Assembly (NCBI GenBank): GCA_035303785.1
Contig: DATGRI010000062.1
Coordinates: 1-35,138, forward strand
DNA from: Sphingobacteriaceae bacterium
Lineage (GTDB): Bacteria; Bacillota; Sulfobacillia; Thermaerobacterales; RSA17
Direction of reading: 5' to 3'
Length of the DNA: 35,138 nt
Every line of letters starts with the position of its first letter. Position 1 is the first letter of the stretch. Shown here in pieces: positions 13,538 to 20,141 of the stretch. The notes beneath the pieces were generated by a model, which was given only the letters and a program-made list of their open reading frames with translations, had not been told where the DNA came from and ran no database searches. The translations under genes and the position numbers were made by a program.

Positions 13538-14308
13538 GTGGCGCCCAAAGAGGCTTGGTACGAGGATTTTTTCGACGAGTATTACCGCGCCGCCCACCGG
13601 GAGTACGAGGAGGAATTTACCACCACCGAAGTTTTCGGCGCTCTGAGCCTGCTGGACCTGAGCCCCGGCGCCCATATCCTGGACGTGCCCTGCGGCACCG
13701 GCCGCCACAGCGTGGCCTTCGCCGCCGCCGGCTATACAGTCACGGGCGTGGATTTGTCCGCCCAAGCCCTGGCCCTGGCCCGGGAGCGGGCCGCAGCGGC
13801 GGGCCGGGCGGAGCAGATTCAATGGGTCCGAGCCGACATGCGCCGCCTGCCGTGGACGGATCATTTCGACGGCGTGGCCTGCCTGTTCAACAGTTTCGGC
13901 TACCTGGGCGACGAGGGGGACACCCAGGCCCTGGCCGCCATGGTGGGCGCCGTCAAGCCCGGCGGTCCCATCCTGCTGGACCTGCCCAACCGGGACTACT
14001 ACCTGGGCGCCGTGCCGCCCGCCTACTGGCAGGAGACGGCGGACCACTGGCTTTTGTGCTCTTTTAATTTCGATTACGTCACAGGCGTCGCCGAAACCGA
14101 CTACACCTTCGTGGCCAAGAACCCCGGGCCGGGCTCGCCGCCCGTGGTGCAGCGCAAGAGTTTCGTCCGCTGGTACACCTTGCCGGAAATCCGCAAGATG
14201 CTGGCAGAGGCGGGCGCCCAGGTGGAGGAGGCTGTGGGCGACTGGGACGGCAGGGCCGTGGACGGCGAAGCGCCCAAGATTATCGTGCTGGCCCGGAAAG
14301 GTGCGTGA
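13538..14308 (+). CDS. Class I SAM-dependent methyltransferase
   Basis: The 256-residue protein carries the class I methyltransferase nucleotide motif 'ILDVPCGTGRHSVAFA' (motif I), the acidic end of strand 2 ('VTGVDLSAQAL'), 'RADMRRLPW' and a post-motif 'VKPGGPILLDLP'. The overall shape is that of the Methyltransf_25/UbiE-like group; the substrate cannot be inferred. GTG 13538 is chosen because GGAGGGAG (13521-13528) is nine bases upstream; the frame is open 27 codons further but without a ribosome binding site. It probably reads alone, since the next gene starts 114 bases later with its own ribosome binding site. Confidence 0.88.
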   Translation: MAPKEAWYEDFFDEYYRAAHREYEEEFTTTEVFGALSLLDLSPGAHILDVPCGTGRHSVAFAAAGYTVTGVDLSAQALALARERAAAAGRAEQIQWVRADMRRLPWTDHFDGVACLFNSFGYLGDEGDTQALAAMVGAVKPGGPILLDLPNRDYYLGAVPPAYWQETADHWLLCSFNFDYVTGVAETDYTFVAKNPGPGSPPVVQRKSFVRWYTLPEIRKMLAEAGAQVEEAVGDWDGRAVDGEAPKIIVLARKGA

Positions 14309-14422
14309 CCGCCCGCGCCCAGGGGAGGGTACGCCGCCGCCATAAAGAATAGTGCACAGATATCGGTTGCATCAGACCCCGCTGCTACAGCACAAATTCC
14401 CCGGCGAGCGAGGGAGGACCCT

Positions 14423-15409
14423 ATGGCACGAGCGCGAACGCGGATACGGGTAAAATTTTCCGACACCGATGCCACAGGCACCGTTTATCACGGGAATTTC
14501 ACCCATTACATGGAATGGGGCCGCCTGGAGGTCTTGCGGCGGGCCCGGCCCCGCCACGGCGATGCCGCCGCCAGGGCCAGGCTGGAGCCCCTCAATTTCG
14601 TAATCGCCCACATTGAGTTGGACTTCCGCAGCCCCGTCCGCTTTCCCGACGAACTGGAGGTAGACAGCTGGGTGCGCAAGATCGGCAACACGTCGGTCTC
14701 CTTCGGCTTTCGCCTGCGGCGCATCCACGACGGGGTGGTGGTGGCCGACGGCCACGACGTCATCGTTTTCGTAGACGAGGAAGGCAGGCCCACCCCCGTG
14801 CCCTCCTGCCTGCGGGACGGCCTGGAGGCTTTCATCGACCCCGGCCCCCAGGATGAGGAGCCGGTGCCGGTGGTGGTGGGCTCCACCAACCCGGCCAAGA
14901 TCCACGCCGTTCGATCGGCCTTGAGCCGGACGGGCCTGGATGCCGTGGTGGAAGGGGTGGCCGTTACCACCGCCGACGCCCAGCCCGTAGGCGATGAGGC
15001 CATCCGCCGCGGCGCCGAGGAGCGGGCCCGGCAGGCCCTGGACCATTTGGCCGCCCGGGCCGGCCAGCCGGCGGAAGGGCTGGCCTTGGGCCTGGAATCG
15101 GGCCTGGTGGTCATGGGCGATGACGTTTACGTCACGGGCTGGTGCGTCGCCCTGGACCGGCAGGGACGCAAGGGTGCGGCCCGGGGCGCCCAGGTGCAGC
15201 TGCCCGCCGCCGTAGCCCAGCGGGTGCTGGCGGGGGAGAGCCTGGCGGACGTCATTGACGAATTGAGCGGCCTGCAGCATTCGGGCACCCGGTCAGGGGC
15301 CATGGGCTACCTGACGGGGGGCGCATACGACCGCCGCGACGCCTGGGAAGGGGCGGTAGCCCTGGCCCTGGCGCCCTTTTTGCGGCCCGACCTGTACACC
15401 GGCCCGTGA
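14423..15409 (+). CDS. Fusion: hotdog thioesterase + DUF84 (YjjX-like) NTPase
   Basis: One 328-residue frame joins two known families. Residues 1-140 are a 4HBT/YbgC-type hotdog thioesterase, with the active-site signature 'SDTDATGTVYHGNFTHYMEWGR'. From about residue 153, 'VVVGSTNPAKIHAVRSAL' opens a DUF84 non-canonical purine NTPase (inosine/xanthosine triphosphatase, YjjX) domain, continuing through 'LGLESGLV', 'LADVIDELSG' and ending in 'SGAMGYLTGGAYDRRDAW' with 'ALALAPFLRPDLY'. The linker is short and acidic (PGPQDEEP). GGGAGGA precedes the ATG. Codon bias is uniform across the junction, so the fusion looks real. Fatty-acyl-thioester hydrolysis and nucleotide house-cleaning have no obvious common substrate. 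Confidence 0.9.
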   Translation: MARARTRIRVKFSDTDATGTVYHGNFTHYMEWGRLEVLRRARPRHGDAAARARLEPLNFVIAHIELDFRSPVRFPDELEVDSWVRKIGNTSVSFGFRLRRIHDGVVVADGHDVIVFVDEEGRPTPVPSCLRDGLEAFIDPGPQDEEPVPVVVGSTNPAKIHAVRSALSRTGLDAVVEGVAVTTADAQPVGDEAIRRGAEERARQALDHLAARAGQPAEGLALGLESGLVVMGDDVYVTGWCVALDRQGRKGAARGAQVQLPAAVAQRVLAGESLADVIDELSGLQHSGTRSGAMGYLTGGAYDRRDAWEGAVALALAPFLRPDLYTGP

Positions 15410-15495: not shown

Positions 15496-16899
15496 ATGAG
15501 TCAAGGGGAATTCCGCATCGAAGCCGATTCCATGGGCGAAGTCAAAGTGCCCGCCTCCGCCTACTACGGCGCCCAGACCCAGCGGGCCGTGGATAACTTC
15601 CCCATCAGCGGCATCACTTTCTCCCGGCGCTTCATCCGTGCCCTGGCGTTGATCAAGCAGGCGGCGGCCGAGGTGAACTCCCAGCTGGGGCTTTTGGGCG
15701 ATGACTTGGCCAAGGCCATCGTCCAGGCCAGCCAGGAGGTCATCGACGGGGGCCTGGACGACCACTTCCCCCTGGACATTTTCCAGACCGGGTCCGGCAC
15801 GTCCACCAACATGAACGCCAACGAGGTCATCGCCAACCGGGCCAACGAGATTCTGGGCAGCCCCCTGGGCTCCCGGAGCCCCGTTCATCCCAACGACCAC
15901 GTCAACATGGGCCAGTCCAGCAACGACGTCATCCCCACGGCCATGCACATCGCCGCCCTGGAAGGCCTGACCCACGACCTGCTGCCCGCCCTCAGGCGGC
16001 TGCGGGACGCCCTGGCGGAAAAGGCCCAGGCCTTCGATGACATCGTCAAGATCGGCCGCACCCACCTGATGGACGCCACGCCCATCCGCCTGGGCCAGGA
16101 GTTCAGCGGCTACGCCTCCATGGTTGAACATTCCATCCGCCGTTTGGAGAATGTCCTGGAGCCCTTGGGCCAGCTGCCCCTGGGGGGCACCGCCGTGGGC
16201 ACCGGCATCAACACCCATCCCGAGTTCCCCGGCCGGGCGGCGGCCCTGCTGGTGGAGAAGACGGGGCTGGGCTTGATGGAGGCCCCCAACCACTTCGAGG
16301 CCCAGGGCGCCCGGGAAGCGGTGGTGGAGGCCAGCGGCCACCTGCGGGCCGCCGCCGTCAGCCTGATGAAGATCGCCAACGACATCCGCTGGCTGGGCTC
16401 GGGTCCCCGCTGCGGCCTATATGAAATCCACCTGCCCGACCTGCAGCCCGGCTCCTCCATCATGCCCGGCAAGGTGAACCCCGTAGTGCCCGAAGCCATG
16501 ATGATGGTGTGCGCCCAGGTCATCGGCAACGACGCCGCCATCGCCGTGGCCGGCCAGCACGGCAACTTCGAATTGAACGTCATGATGCCCGTCATGGCCC
16601 ACAACCTGCTCCAGTCCATCGAGATCCTGGCCAACGCCTGCGACATCATGACCGAGCGGTGCGTCAAGGGCATCAAGGCCAACCGGGAGCGGTGCGAGGA
16701 ACTGGTGGAGTGGAGCATGGCCATGGTCACCTCCCTGGTGCCGGTGCTGGGCTACGACACGGCGGCCCAGGTGGCCTACGCCGCCTACAACGAAGGCCGC
16801 ACCGTCCGGGAAGTGCTCCGGGACCGGAAGCTGCTGCCCGAGGACGAGCTGAACCGGCTCCTGGATCCCTGGTCCATGACGGAGCCGGGGCGGGCCTGA
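15496..16899 (+). CDS. fumC: Fumarate hydratase, class II
   Basis: The Fe-independent tetrameric fumarase of the TCA cycle, converting fumarate and malate. The 467-residue length fits the family. Visible landmarks are 'GSGTSTNMNANEVIANRA', 'GRTHLMDATPIRLGQEFSGY', 'GGTAVGTGINTHPEF' and the superfamily signature GSSIMPGKVNP, with 'QHGNFELNVMMPVMAHNLLQ' following. These match fumarase better than aspartase. GAGGTGA lies eight bases before the ATG. It is directly followed by the dCMP deaminase gene, four bases after its stop, so they form an operon. Confidence 0.95.
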   Translation: MSQGEFRIEADSMGEVKVPASAYYGAQTQRAVDNFPISGITFSRRFIRALALIKQAAAEVNSQLGLLGDDLAKAIVQASQEVIDGGLDDHFPLDIFQTGSGTSTNMNANEVIANRANEILGSPLGSRSPVHPNDHVNMGQSSNDVIPTAMHIAALEGLTHDLLPALRRLRDALAEKAQAFDDIVKIGRTHLMDATPIRLGQEFSGYASMVEHSIRRLENVLEPLGQLPLGGTAVGTGINTHPEFPGRAAALLVEKTGLGLMEAPNHFEAQGAREAVVEASGHLRAAAVSLMKIANDIRWLGSGPRCGLYEIHLPDLQPGSSIMPGKVNPVVPEAMMMVCAQVIGNDAAIAVAGQHGNFELNVMMPVMAHNLLQSIEILANACDIMTERCVKGIKANRERCEELVEWSMAMVTSLVPVLGYDTAAQVAYAAYNEGRTVREVLRDRKLLPEDELNRLLDPWSMTEPGRA

Positions 16900-16902
16900 C
16901 CC

Positions 16903-17355
16903 ATGACCCGACCGGAGAATACAGGCCGGCGCCCTTCTTGGGACGAGTACTTCATCTCCCTGGCGGCCCAGGTGGCCACCCGGTCCACCTGCGGCCGCCG
17001 GGCCGTGGGCGCCGTGCTGGTGCGGGACCGGCGCATCCTGGCCACGGGCTACAACGGCAGCCCGCCCGGCTTTGACCACTGCATCGACGTAGGCTGCCTG
17101 GAGGTGGACGGCCACTGCCTGCGGACCGTCCACGCCGAGGTCAACGCCATCGTCCAGGCCGCCCTCCACGGGGTGAGCACCCAGGGGGCCACGCTGTACT
17201 GCACCAGCGCGCCCTGCCTGGGCTGCACCAAGATGCTCATCGGCAGCGGCATCCGCCGCATCGTTTACCGGGATCCTTACGACGATCCCTTGTCGGTGGA
17301 GTTCCTGCGCATCGCCGGCATACCCCTGGAGCAAATCACCGTGCCGGTCTCCTGA
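16903..17355 (+). CDS. dCMP deaminase family protein
   Basis: A 150-residue zinc-dependent deaminase of the deoxycytidylate deaminase (ComEB-like) family, making dUMP for thymidylate synthesis. The Zn site is complete: HAEVNAI gives the His ligand and catalytic Glu, and CTSAPCLGC gives the two Cys ligands. 'GRRAVGAVLVRDRRILATGYNGSP' is the characteristic N-terminal part. It follows fumC after three bases, without a clear ribosome binding site of its own, and ends before a strong bidirectional hairpin. Confidence 0.9.
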   Translation: MTRPENTGRRPSWDEYFISLAAQVATRSTCGRRAVGAVLVRDRRILATGYNGSPPGFDHCIDVGCLEVDGHCLRTVHAEVNAIVQAALHGVSTQGATLYCTSAPCLGCTKMLIGSGIRRIVYRDPYDDPLSVEFLRIAGIPLEQITVPVS

Positions 17356-17406
17356 GGGACCGAAGCCGCCCGCCGGGGCGGCACGGAAACCTGCAGCAAC
17401 AAGAAA

Positions 17407-17442
17407 GGAGCCCGGGCTTGCGCCCGGGCTCCCTTGGTTTTT
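17407..17442. terminator. Bidirectional Rho-independent terminator
   Basis: An 11-base-pair stem (17407-17417 with 17422-17432) with a TTGC loop is followed on the plus strand by CTTGGTTTTT. On the minus strand the hairpin is followed by TTTCTTGTTGC. It separates the dCMP deaminase gene from the convergent korB and can end transcripts from both sides. Confidence 0.8.
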
Positions 17443-17489: not shown

Positions 17490-18371
17490 TCAATAGTGCC
17501 GGGCCAGGAGCTTCTGGAAGCGCTCCCGGTCCAGGCCCTCCCGCAGTTCCGCTAGGGGCTCCTGGGGGAAGAAGGGCAGCACCTCTTCGTAGGGCTTCAT
17601 TTCCTTGTTCTCGTAGACCACGCCCGTCACCAAGGCGTCGTGCTCCATCAAGGTGGCCAACGCCCCCAGGGGGTCGTGGCGGTCGTAGCCGGCGATGGAG
17701 TCCAGGTCCACCAGGTTCTCCCGGTAGAACTCGTAGGTGTTCCGCTTGTTGAAGGTGACGCACGGGCTGAGGACGTTGACCAGGGCGAAGCCCCGGTGCC
17801 GGTAGGCCTGCTCCATGATCTCCGTCAACTGCTTCACGTCGCCGGAAAAGCCCTGGGCCACGAAGCCGCAGCCGGCGGCCACGGCGGTGGCCAGGGGCCG
17901 GATGGGGTTTTCCGCCGCCCCGTAGGGGGTGGTCTTGGTCACGTGGCCCGGATCCGACGTGGGGGAGGCCTGGCCCGTGGTCAGGCCGTAGATGTGGTTG
18001 TCCATGACCACGTAGGTGATGTCGATGTTGCGCCGGATGGCATGCATCAGGTGGCCGATGCCGATGCCGTAGCCGTCGCCGTCACCCCCGGCGGCCACCA
18101 CCAGCAGATCCCGGTTGGCCAGCTTCACGGCGGTGGCCACGGGCAGGGTCCGGCCGTGGACGCCGTGGAAGCCGTAGGTGGCCATGAATTGGGAGATCTT
18201 GCCCGAGCAGCCGATGCCCGACACGCACACATACTCGTGGGGCTGGATGCCCAGGTTGACGGCCGCCGTCTGCATGGCCCGCAGCACGGCGAAGTCGCCG
18301 CAGCCCGGGCACCAGGTGATTTCCTCGCCGGTGAACTGCGCGATCTTTTCCTTCAAGCTGACCGCGGCCAT
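17490..18371 (-). CDS. korB: 2-oxoacid:ferredoxin oxidoreductase, beta subunit
   Basis: The beta subunit (293 residues) holds thiamine diphosphate and one [4Fe-4S] cluster. The cluster cysteines are likely in 'WCPGCG', 'VSGIGCSGKI' and 'LSPCVTFN', and the TPP site is GDGDGYGIGIGH with a following 'VVMDNHIYGLTTGQ'. The family oxidises 2-oxoglutarate, pyruvate or related acids with CoA, passing electrons to ferredoxin; the exact substrate is not decided by sequence, so the kor symbol is by closest similarity. The start codon directly abuts the end of korA, as is usual for the pair. Confidence 0.92.
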   Translation of the reverse strand: MAAVSLKEKIAQFTGEEITWCPGCGDFAVLRAMQTAAVNLGIQPHEYVCVSGIGCSGKISQFMATYGFHGVHGRTLPVATAVKLANRDLLVVAAGGDGDGYGIGIGHLMHAIRRNIDITYVVMDNHIYGLTTGQASPTSDPGHVTKTTPYGAAENPIRPLATAVAAGCGFVAQGFSGDVKQLTEIMEQAYRHRGFALVNVLSPCVTFNKRNTYEFYRENLVDLDSIAGYDRHDPLGALATLMEHDALVTGVVYENKEMKPYEEVLPFFPQEPLAELREGLDRERFQKLLARHY

Positions 18372-20141
18372 TCAAGACACCTCGCTTACAGGCCGGATGC
18401 TGTCCACCACCTGCAACGCCCGCGCCACGATTTCGTCCACGGTGAAGGGGTTGCCGTCGTACTTGCGGCAGCCCTCATAGCGGTCGTGATGGCCCAGTTC
18501 CTTTTGCAGCAGTTCCTGCAGCTGGCCCGTGAAGTTGTTTTCCACCACCAGCACCTTGGCGGCCTTCTGGATGTAGGGCAGGACCTGAGCCTTGGGGAAG
18601 GGCCGCAGCAGCCGCAGGTGGAGGTGCCCCACCGGGATGCCCCGGGCCGCCAGCTCCTCCCGGGCCTCCTCCATGGGGCCGTAGGAGGAGCCCATGCCCA
18701 GGAGGAGCAGTTGGGGCTCTTCATCCCCATCGTAGAAGAGGCTCAAATCCCAGCGGTCGAAGCGATCCAGCTTCCGCATGCGCTTTTCCATCTGCAGGCG
18801 GCGCATGGCGGCATCTTCCGTCTCGGCGTTGCTCTCGGCCTCGTGCTCGTTGCTCATGCCGACGAACTGGCCCTTGGGCATGCCGGGAAGGGTGCGGGGG
18901 GAGATGCCGTCCTCCGTCAGCCGGTAGCGGCGGTAAGGGCCGTTGGCCAGCCGCTCCAGATCCTCCCGGCTCAGGATGAGCCCCCGGTCGATGGGCACCT
19001 GGTCGTAGTCCAGGCCCATGATGGTCTGGCGGCTGCCGGCCAGGTACAGGTCGGAGCCCAGGATGACCGGGCACTGGAACCGGTCGGCCAGGTTGAAGGC
19101 TTCCGCCGCCAGCTTGAAGCTGTCTTCCACCGTGGCCGGCATGAGCACGATGCGGGGAAACTCGCCGTGGGAGCCGTAGAGCATCTCGTTCAAGTCGCTC
19201 TGCTCCGTCTTGGTGGGCATGCCCGTGCTGGGGCCGGCCCGCTGGACGTTGACCACCACCACGGGCGTCTCGGAAATGCCCGCCAGGCCCAAAGCCTCCT
19301 GCATCAAGGAGAATCCCGGGCCCGAGGTGGCCGTCATGGCCCGCACGCCGGCGTAGTTGGCGCCGATGGCCATGTTGATGGCGGCGATTTCGTCCTCGGC
19401 CTGGACCACGGCCCCGCCCAGCTCGGGCAGGTTGGCCAGGACCCAGTACATGATGTCGGTGGCCGGTGTGATGGGGTACTGGAACAGCAGGCGGCAGCCG
19501 GCTGTCACGGCGCCCAGGGCCGTGGCGTCGTTGCCGTTCATGAAGGGGCGGGGCCCCGGCTCCGCCAGGGGCGGCGGCAGTTCAAACCGGCGGCCCGCGT
19601 CGATGCAGCACTCGTAGCCCTGCCGCACCAGGGCCATGTTCTGGGCCACCACCTTTTCCCCTTTGTCACCGAACCTTTCGGCGATCAAGGGCCGGAACGC
19701 CTCGGGGTCCAGCCCCACGATGGCCGCCGAGACGCCCACGGCCACCATGTTCTTCATGATGGCGCCGCCGGCTTCCCGGGCCATCTCCGTCATGGGCACC
19801 GCCAGCAGCTGCACGCCGGCGTCGTCGGGCACCCGGGCCTCGAAACGGCTGTCGTAGATGATGAGGCCCCCGGGCGCCATGGAGTCCAGGTTGAAGTCGA
19901 TGGTGTACTGGTCGAAAGCGATGAGCACGTCGGTGTCGTCGGCGTGGTGGCGGCGGATCTCCGGCGTGACCCGGAGCTTGTAGTAGGTGTGGCCGCCTTT
20001 GATCAAGGACATGTAGTGACGGTAGGCATAGACGGCGTGGCCCAGCCGGTGGAGGGCCAAGCCGAAAATCTCGCCGGTGGAATCGATGCCTTCTCCCTGC
20101 TCGCCACCGACCTTCCAGGCGAAGTCCGCCCGTTTACCCAC
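18372..20141 (-). CDS. korA: 2-oxoacid:ferredoxin oxidoreductase, fused gamma-alpha subunit
   Basis: A 589-residue fusion of the gamma domain (about residues 1-185, from 'WKVGGEQGEGIDSTGEIFG') with the alpha domain (about 200-589). Landmarks of the alpha part are 'LLFQYPITPATDIMYW', 'VVQAEDEIAAINMAIGANY', 'TSGPGFSLMQEALGLA' and 'VQRAGPSTGMPTKTEQSDL'. The fused layout is that of Bacillota and Sulfolobus-type enzymes with two subunits. GGGAGGTGA precedes the GTG start at a good spacing. korB follows without a gap; fumC nearby is the only other TCA gene in the window. Confidence 0.93.
   Translation of the reverse strand: MGKRADFAWKVGGEQGEGIDSTGEIFGLALHRLGHAVYAYRHYMSLIKGGHTYYKLRVTPEIRRHHADDTDVLIAFDQYTIDFNLDSMAPGGLIIYDSRFEARVPDDAGVQLLAVPMTEMAREAGGAIMKNMVAVGVSAAIVGLDPEAFRPLIAERFGDKGEKVVAQNMALVRQGYECCIDAGRRFELPPPLAEPGPRPFMNGNDATALGAVTAGCRLLFQYPITPATDIMYWVLANLPELGGAVVQAEDEIAAINMAIGANYAGVRAMTATSGPGFSLMQEALGLAGISETPVVVVNVQRAGPSTGMPTKTEQSDLNEMLYGSHGEFPRIVLMPATVEDSFKLAAEAFNLADRFQCPVILGSDLYLAGSRQTIMGLDYDQVPIDRGLILSREDLERLANGPYRRYRLTEDGISPRTLPGMPKGQFVGMSNEHEAESNAETEDAAMRRLQMEKRMRKLDRFDRWDLSLFYDGDEEPQLLLLGMGSSYGPMEEAREELAARGIPVGHLHLRLLRPFPKAQVLPYIQKAAKVLVVENNFTGQLQELLQKELGHHDRYEGCRKYDGNPFTVDEIVARALQVVDSIRPVSEVS

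Follow-up and report, generated by a model that had tools for sequence, protein, structure and literature searches.

The window, the stretch of 35,138 nucleotides analysed here, carries a single open frame (14423-15409, plus strand, ATG to TGA) whose product of 328 amino acids joins a YbgC-type 4HBT thioesterase, through a short linker, to a C-terminal DUF84/NTPase_I-T domain. The fusion is real, not a sequencing artefact, and its conservation extends over at least three genera in a sparsely sampled class of bacteria. The best explanation, to which we assign a probability of roughly 55%, is that the product is a bifunctional household protein which arose by one fusion event and consists of two independent enzyme modules with separate substrates. 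The N-terminal YbgC-type hotdog half would hydrolyse acyl-CoA, with Asp16 as the catalytic carboxylate, while the C-terminal DUF84 half, of ITPase/Maf-like fold, would hydrolyse nucleoside triphosphates, the probable substrate being a damaged purine NTP. The fusion itself would only couple the expression, and perhaps the oligomeric state, of halves that act on separate substrates; we infer both activities as well as their independence, with nothing channelled between the halves. Both domains are known, and their combination, which was not found in the papers searched, may already stand in protein-architecture databases. A 2004 survey of the hotdog superfamily gives the fused domains of the YbgC-like group as 'None' (PMC516016), and no paper in the literature searched connects DUF84 with CoA or with a thioesterase. 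The interest of the protein lies in this conserved join of acyl-CoA hydrolysis to a nucleotide-cleaning fold, of which no description was found in the literature searched.

A first-pass annotation of the window had read the frame as a thioesterase joined to an NTPase domain and had named the two domains as YbgC-type and DUF84. Both assignments proved right by Pfam, with matches above the curated cut-offs in a frame that is open over all 328 residues; the strings that had been quoted for it, SDTDATGTVYHGN, VVVGSTNPAKIHAV and SGAMGYLTGG, correspond to residues 13-25, 150-163 and 291-300 of the fused protein, respectively. Codon-position GC indicates that the coding pattern is kept throughout the join, third-position GC being 0.84-0.90. 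A search for both domains in one chain identified three further carriers: G001, which belongs to the same family but another genus and is syntenic with the window (44% identity to the window protein), and G097 and G098, which represent one genus of another family and have the gene in another operon (about 40-43% identity). Pfam confirmed both domains in the fused proteins. An assembly error does not account for the join, since in G001, G097 and G098 the two domains likewise follow each other, thioesterase first, within one frame free of internal stops, also near the join, where a missed stop or frameshift had been considered. Two genes joined in sequencing or assembly are thus ruled out by three independent genomes, and we regard the chance of such an error as negligible. 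At the join, positions 14855-14878 of the window contain GAGGAG followed by in-frame GTG codons, which could represent an internal start for the DUF84 half; this arrangement is not common to the other carriers (G001, G097, G098).

Altogether, the fusion occurs in 4 of the 154 genomes of the class. The 398 genomes sampled over the phylum, the window's own included, and 73 genomes of a second class yielded no additional case. Beyond the phylum, the survey comprised only one pattern scan of genome contigs and the plasmid records. The scan, based on a one-protein query that detects close relatives only, revealed no fusion and two DUF84 matches, one in Cognataquiflexum and a short one in Amycolatopsis; in the plasmid records no match covered most of the fused protein. 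Viral contigs yielded one distant thioesterase and no fusion.

Table 1. Features of the fused gene and its surroundings, with positions in the window.
Feature	Position	Strand	Basis
SAM-dependent methyltransferase-like gene, upstream neighbour, syntenic in G001	13538..14308	+	gene calls; function by eye
Shine-Dalgarno-like AGGGAGG, 5 nt 5' of the ATG	14411..14417	+	sequence
Fused gene, YbgC-type 4HBT thioesterase + DUF84 (NTPase_I-T), 328 aa	14423..15409	+	frame, Pfam; conserved in G001, G097, G098
4HBT/hotdog thioesterase domain, residues 10-131	14450..14815	+	Pfam PF13279 6e-14, PF03061 7e-14; 17/18 positions of PROSITE PS01328
Asp16 codon, counterpart of the YbgC catalytic Asp	14468..14470	+	invariance; alignments to solved structures
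Linker, residues 132-152	14816..14878	+	between Pfam matches; variable among fused proteins
DUF84 / NTPase_I-T domain, residues 153-320	14879..15382	+	Pfam PF01931 8.5e-40; YjjX and VC0702 structures matched
Ala193-Ile194, replacing the conserved Glu/Gln-Thr pair of DUF84	14999..15004	+	alignment with unfused DUF84
Class II fumarase (fumC), downstream neighbour, syntenic in G001	15496..16899	+	gene calls; by eye
dCMP deaminase-like gene, downstream neighbour, syntenic in G001	16903..17355	+	gene calls; by eye
Strong bidirectional terminator-like hairpin closing the gene run	17404..17435	.	sequence

The thioesterase half exceeds the Pfam cut-offs (52.3 bits against 20.6 for PF03061, 4HBT; 53 against 25.5 for PF13279, 4HBT_2). 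The active-site pattern PS01328, as quoted in PMC516016, is fitted with its Asp present, and the sole departure, T for I/V, is what precludes a strict match. In Haemophilus influenzae YbgC, the D18N substitution abolishes activity (PMC2698920); the residue at this place, D16, is invariant in the four fused proteins and in all 21 related thioesterases. The hotdog 4HBT domain, the motif at 17 of 18 positions and the catalytic Asp are shared with the YbgC-like (tol-pal type) acyl-CoA thioesterases (PDB 1s5u, 5kl9, 1z54), from which the window protein differs by its additional C-terminal domain and by scores under the NCBI cut-offs, narrowly for the YbgC/FadM subfamily (TIGR00051, 65.0 against 68.7) and more clearly for the tol-pal YbgC equivalog (TIGR02799, 79.9 against 141.35). 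Furthermore, unlike in the case of tol-pal YbgC, no tol-pal genes were recognised among the neighbours of the fused gene.

The genome that contains the window (1.64 Mb, 97.9% complete) has no other place matching either half of the protein. Apart from the fused gene, a broader 4HBT model matches there only genes that read as FabZ and FapR, which leaves room for the tentative and rather doubtful proposal that menaquinone synthesis in this genome obtains its otherwise missing DHNA-CoA hydrolase (MenI) from the thioesterase half, a role that would be compatible with two independent modules. In line with this, menB lies over its cut-off (442.9 against 342.7 bits), the stretch menF-menD-menH-menB-menE (G000:C50, L105:1954-11414; read by eye, menB by model) is without a hotdog gene, and the protein gives a weak MenI_Staph match (1.2e-9, under the cut-off). 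However, no gene reaches the menB cut-off in the other carriers of the fusion, G001, G097 and G098. As the conserved role of the fusion, MenI is ruled out by this survey, in which only the window genome passed that cut-off.

The DUF84 half is a full-length domain (PF01931, 136.7 bits against a cut-off of 25, profile positions 1-162 of 162). It shares this full length and the NPAK, QP.G, GLE.G and GAMG motifs with the inosine/xanthosine triphosphatases YjjX and VC0702 (PDB 1u14, 1u5w, 1zno, 1zwy), but differs from them in lying C-terminal to a thioesterase, in falling under the equivalog cut-off and in having A-I for the E/Q-T pair. Most columns conserved in 43 unfused DUF84 relatives are retained in the fused proteins, with this pair as the one clear exception: in all 43 unfused proteins the first position is E or Q, in 40 of them the second is T, and the solved E. 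coli-type and Vibrio homologues have Glu-Thr, whereas the fused proteins of the window, G097 and G098 have A-I; G001 has E-T. The label 'ITP/XTP clean-up' that had been attached to the gene can be only provisional here. Because the pair is replaced in three of the four fused proteins, and because the window protein scores just under the cut-off of the NCBI inosine/xanthosine triphosphatase model (TIGR00258, 111.3 against 117.1), ITP/XTP activity of this half appears plausible but not secure.

The same replacement bears on the question of whether the DUF84 half might instead have lost most or all of its triphosphatase activity and now regulate the thioesterase as a nucleotide sensor. Besides the A-I pair in the window, G097 and G098, an altered SGV loop next to the pair points in this direction, and a separate HAM1/RdgB ITPase in the window genome would make a loss of activity tolerable. 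On the other hand, the other conserved DUF84 residues (G153, N156, K159, R201, G223, E225, G227, G292 and R304) are kept in all four fused proteins, and G001 is fused yet retains E-T; we consider such a regulatory half unlikely. It might likewise be speculated, at no better odds, that DUF84 changed its function in the lineage that unites the window with G097 and G098, where it would sense or hydrolyse an unusual nucleotide, perhaps one derived from CoA, with the thioesterase controlled by or coupled to nucleotide damage.

In the class, DUF84 appears as a domain that is joined to several partners, namely the thioesterase, QueG, Nudix and GNAT. QueG (epoxyqueuosine reductase) carries a C-terminal DUF84 domain in frame in three genomes of one genus, confirmed with Pfam in G042 (L008/L072) and found in the same frame by translation in G022 (L007) and G057 (L011). 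DUF84 is followed by a C-terminal Nudix domain in G047 (L070:2989-4017, minus strand; Pfam-confirmed), and the DUF84 copy of G147 (L036), a close relative, likewise lies in a long frame. In one genome only, G088, a GNAT acetyltransferase has a C-terminal DUF84 domain (L071:6527-7537, plus strand; Pfam-confirmed). Similarly, a DUF84-type domain is joined to another enzyme in the bifunctional pantetheine-phosphate adenylyltransferase/NTP phosphatase (PRK01170, NF002250), the partner there being an adenylyltransferase rather than a thioesterase; of NF002250, the window protein matches the DUF84 (C-terminal) part alone (64.8 against a cut-off of 489). The choice of partner by DUF84 looks opportunistic.

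The gene surroundings differ between the carriers. According to gene names assigned by eye from the translations, the order is SOD-methyltransferase-fusion-fumC-dCMP deaminase in the window; in G001, a gene like those of extracellular binding proteins, SOD, a small gene, the methyltransferase and the fusion are followed by an inserted methyltransferase and MogA-like gene and then by fumC and the dCMP deaminase gene. In G097 and G098 the order is metG-tatD-rsmA-DUF458-like-fusion-veg-cphB-cphA. The dCMP deaminase gene and the terminator-like hairpin behind it suggest a transcription unit with a nucleotide gene, which lends weak support to a nucleotide role of the DUF84 half. Unfused thioesterase and DUF84 genes were never adjacent in relatives where both were found. 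In G002 they are located at 1.64 Mb and 2.32 Mb, they are likewise apart in G003-G005, and they reside on separate contigs in G007, G016, G022, G042, G047 and G057. A shared operon before the fusion was rejected as a candidate origin, as no genome with both separate genes has them adjoining.

These data also bear on the idea that both halves serve one pathway, the repair or removal of damaged acyl-CoA or CoA, for example in a deaminated, inosine-containing form, in which the thioesterase would free the acyl group and DUF84 would attack the nucleotide or the ITP from which it stems. Circumstantially, hotdog proteins bind CoA, the NCBIfam fusion partner of DUF84 is an enzyme of CoA synthesis, and GNAT is a further partner; yet QueG is a partner as well, the separate genes are non-adjacent in relatives, no CoA genes were seen around the fused gene in either context, and the literature searched yielded no paper that makes the link. 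We consider such a pathway very improbable. The speculation on inosine-CoA in the first-pass annotation accordingly found no direct support, and a shared pathway drew no support from adjacency, from the context, which differs between the two families, or from the literature searched; adjoining separate genes, for which it had proposed to look, were absent wherever both were seen.

Our preference for two independent enzymes in one chain is based on the completeness of both domains and the conserved Asp of the thioesterase, on the unfused genes being non-adjacent and the contexts of the carriers different, and on the joining of DUF84 to unrelated partners in the class. Two points speak against this preference. 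The DUF84 half may have taken on a new substrate or be catalytically inactive, judging from its score under the NCBI cut-off and the lost pair, and a certain benefit of the join is suggested by the retention of the fused gene at differing loci in the two families. If the halves were found to affect each other, the protein would represent a novel way of controlling acyl-CoA levels; if they do not interact, it is a reminder that fusions need not mark a shared pathway.

The origin of the fusion was addressed by one tree per domain, with long and redundant rows omitted. The four fused proteins group as one clade in the best tree of each domain, at 93/89 in that of DUF84 and 86/85 in that of the thioesterase. 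As neither clade is starred, these trees favour a single fusion event without proving it. In the thioesterase tree, the fused half has the free thioesterase of the order-mates G002-G004 as its sister group (96/93). In the DUF84 tree the window protein joins those of G097 and G098 (100/98) and not that of its family-mate G001, and a pairing of the window with G001 is rejected (p-AU 0.014). Both the DUF84 tree and the differing context could reflect a transfer of the fused gene from one of the two families to the other; other histories would also be consistent, and the thioesterase tree does not discriminate among them. In the genus of G097 and G098 both halves are under purifying selection, as dN/dS between the two genomes is low in each (thioesterase, about 0.11; DUF84, 0.1-0.24; dS partly saturated).

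Finally, a 2-oxoacid:ferredoxin oxidoreductase pair, recognised by eye, is located within a few kb of the DUF84 gene in the window (17490-20141, minus strand). None was seen at the corresponding place in G001. Such a pair is also found near the DUF84 gene in the order-mates G002 and G006 (L064:3332-7687, L069:7324-11433), and it is possibly a trace of an old neighbourhood.
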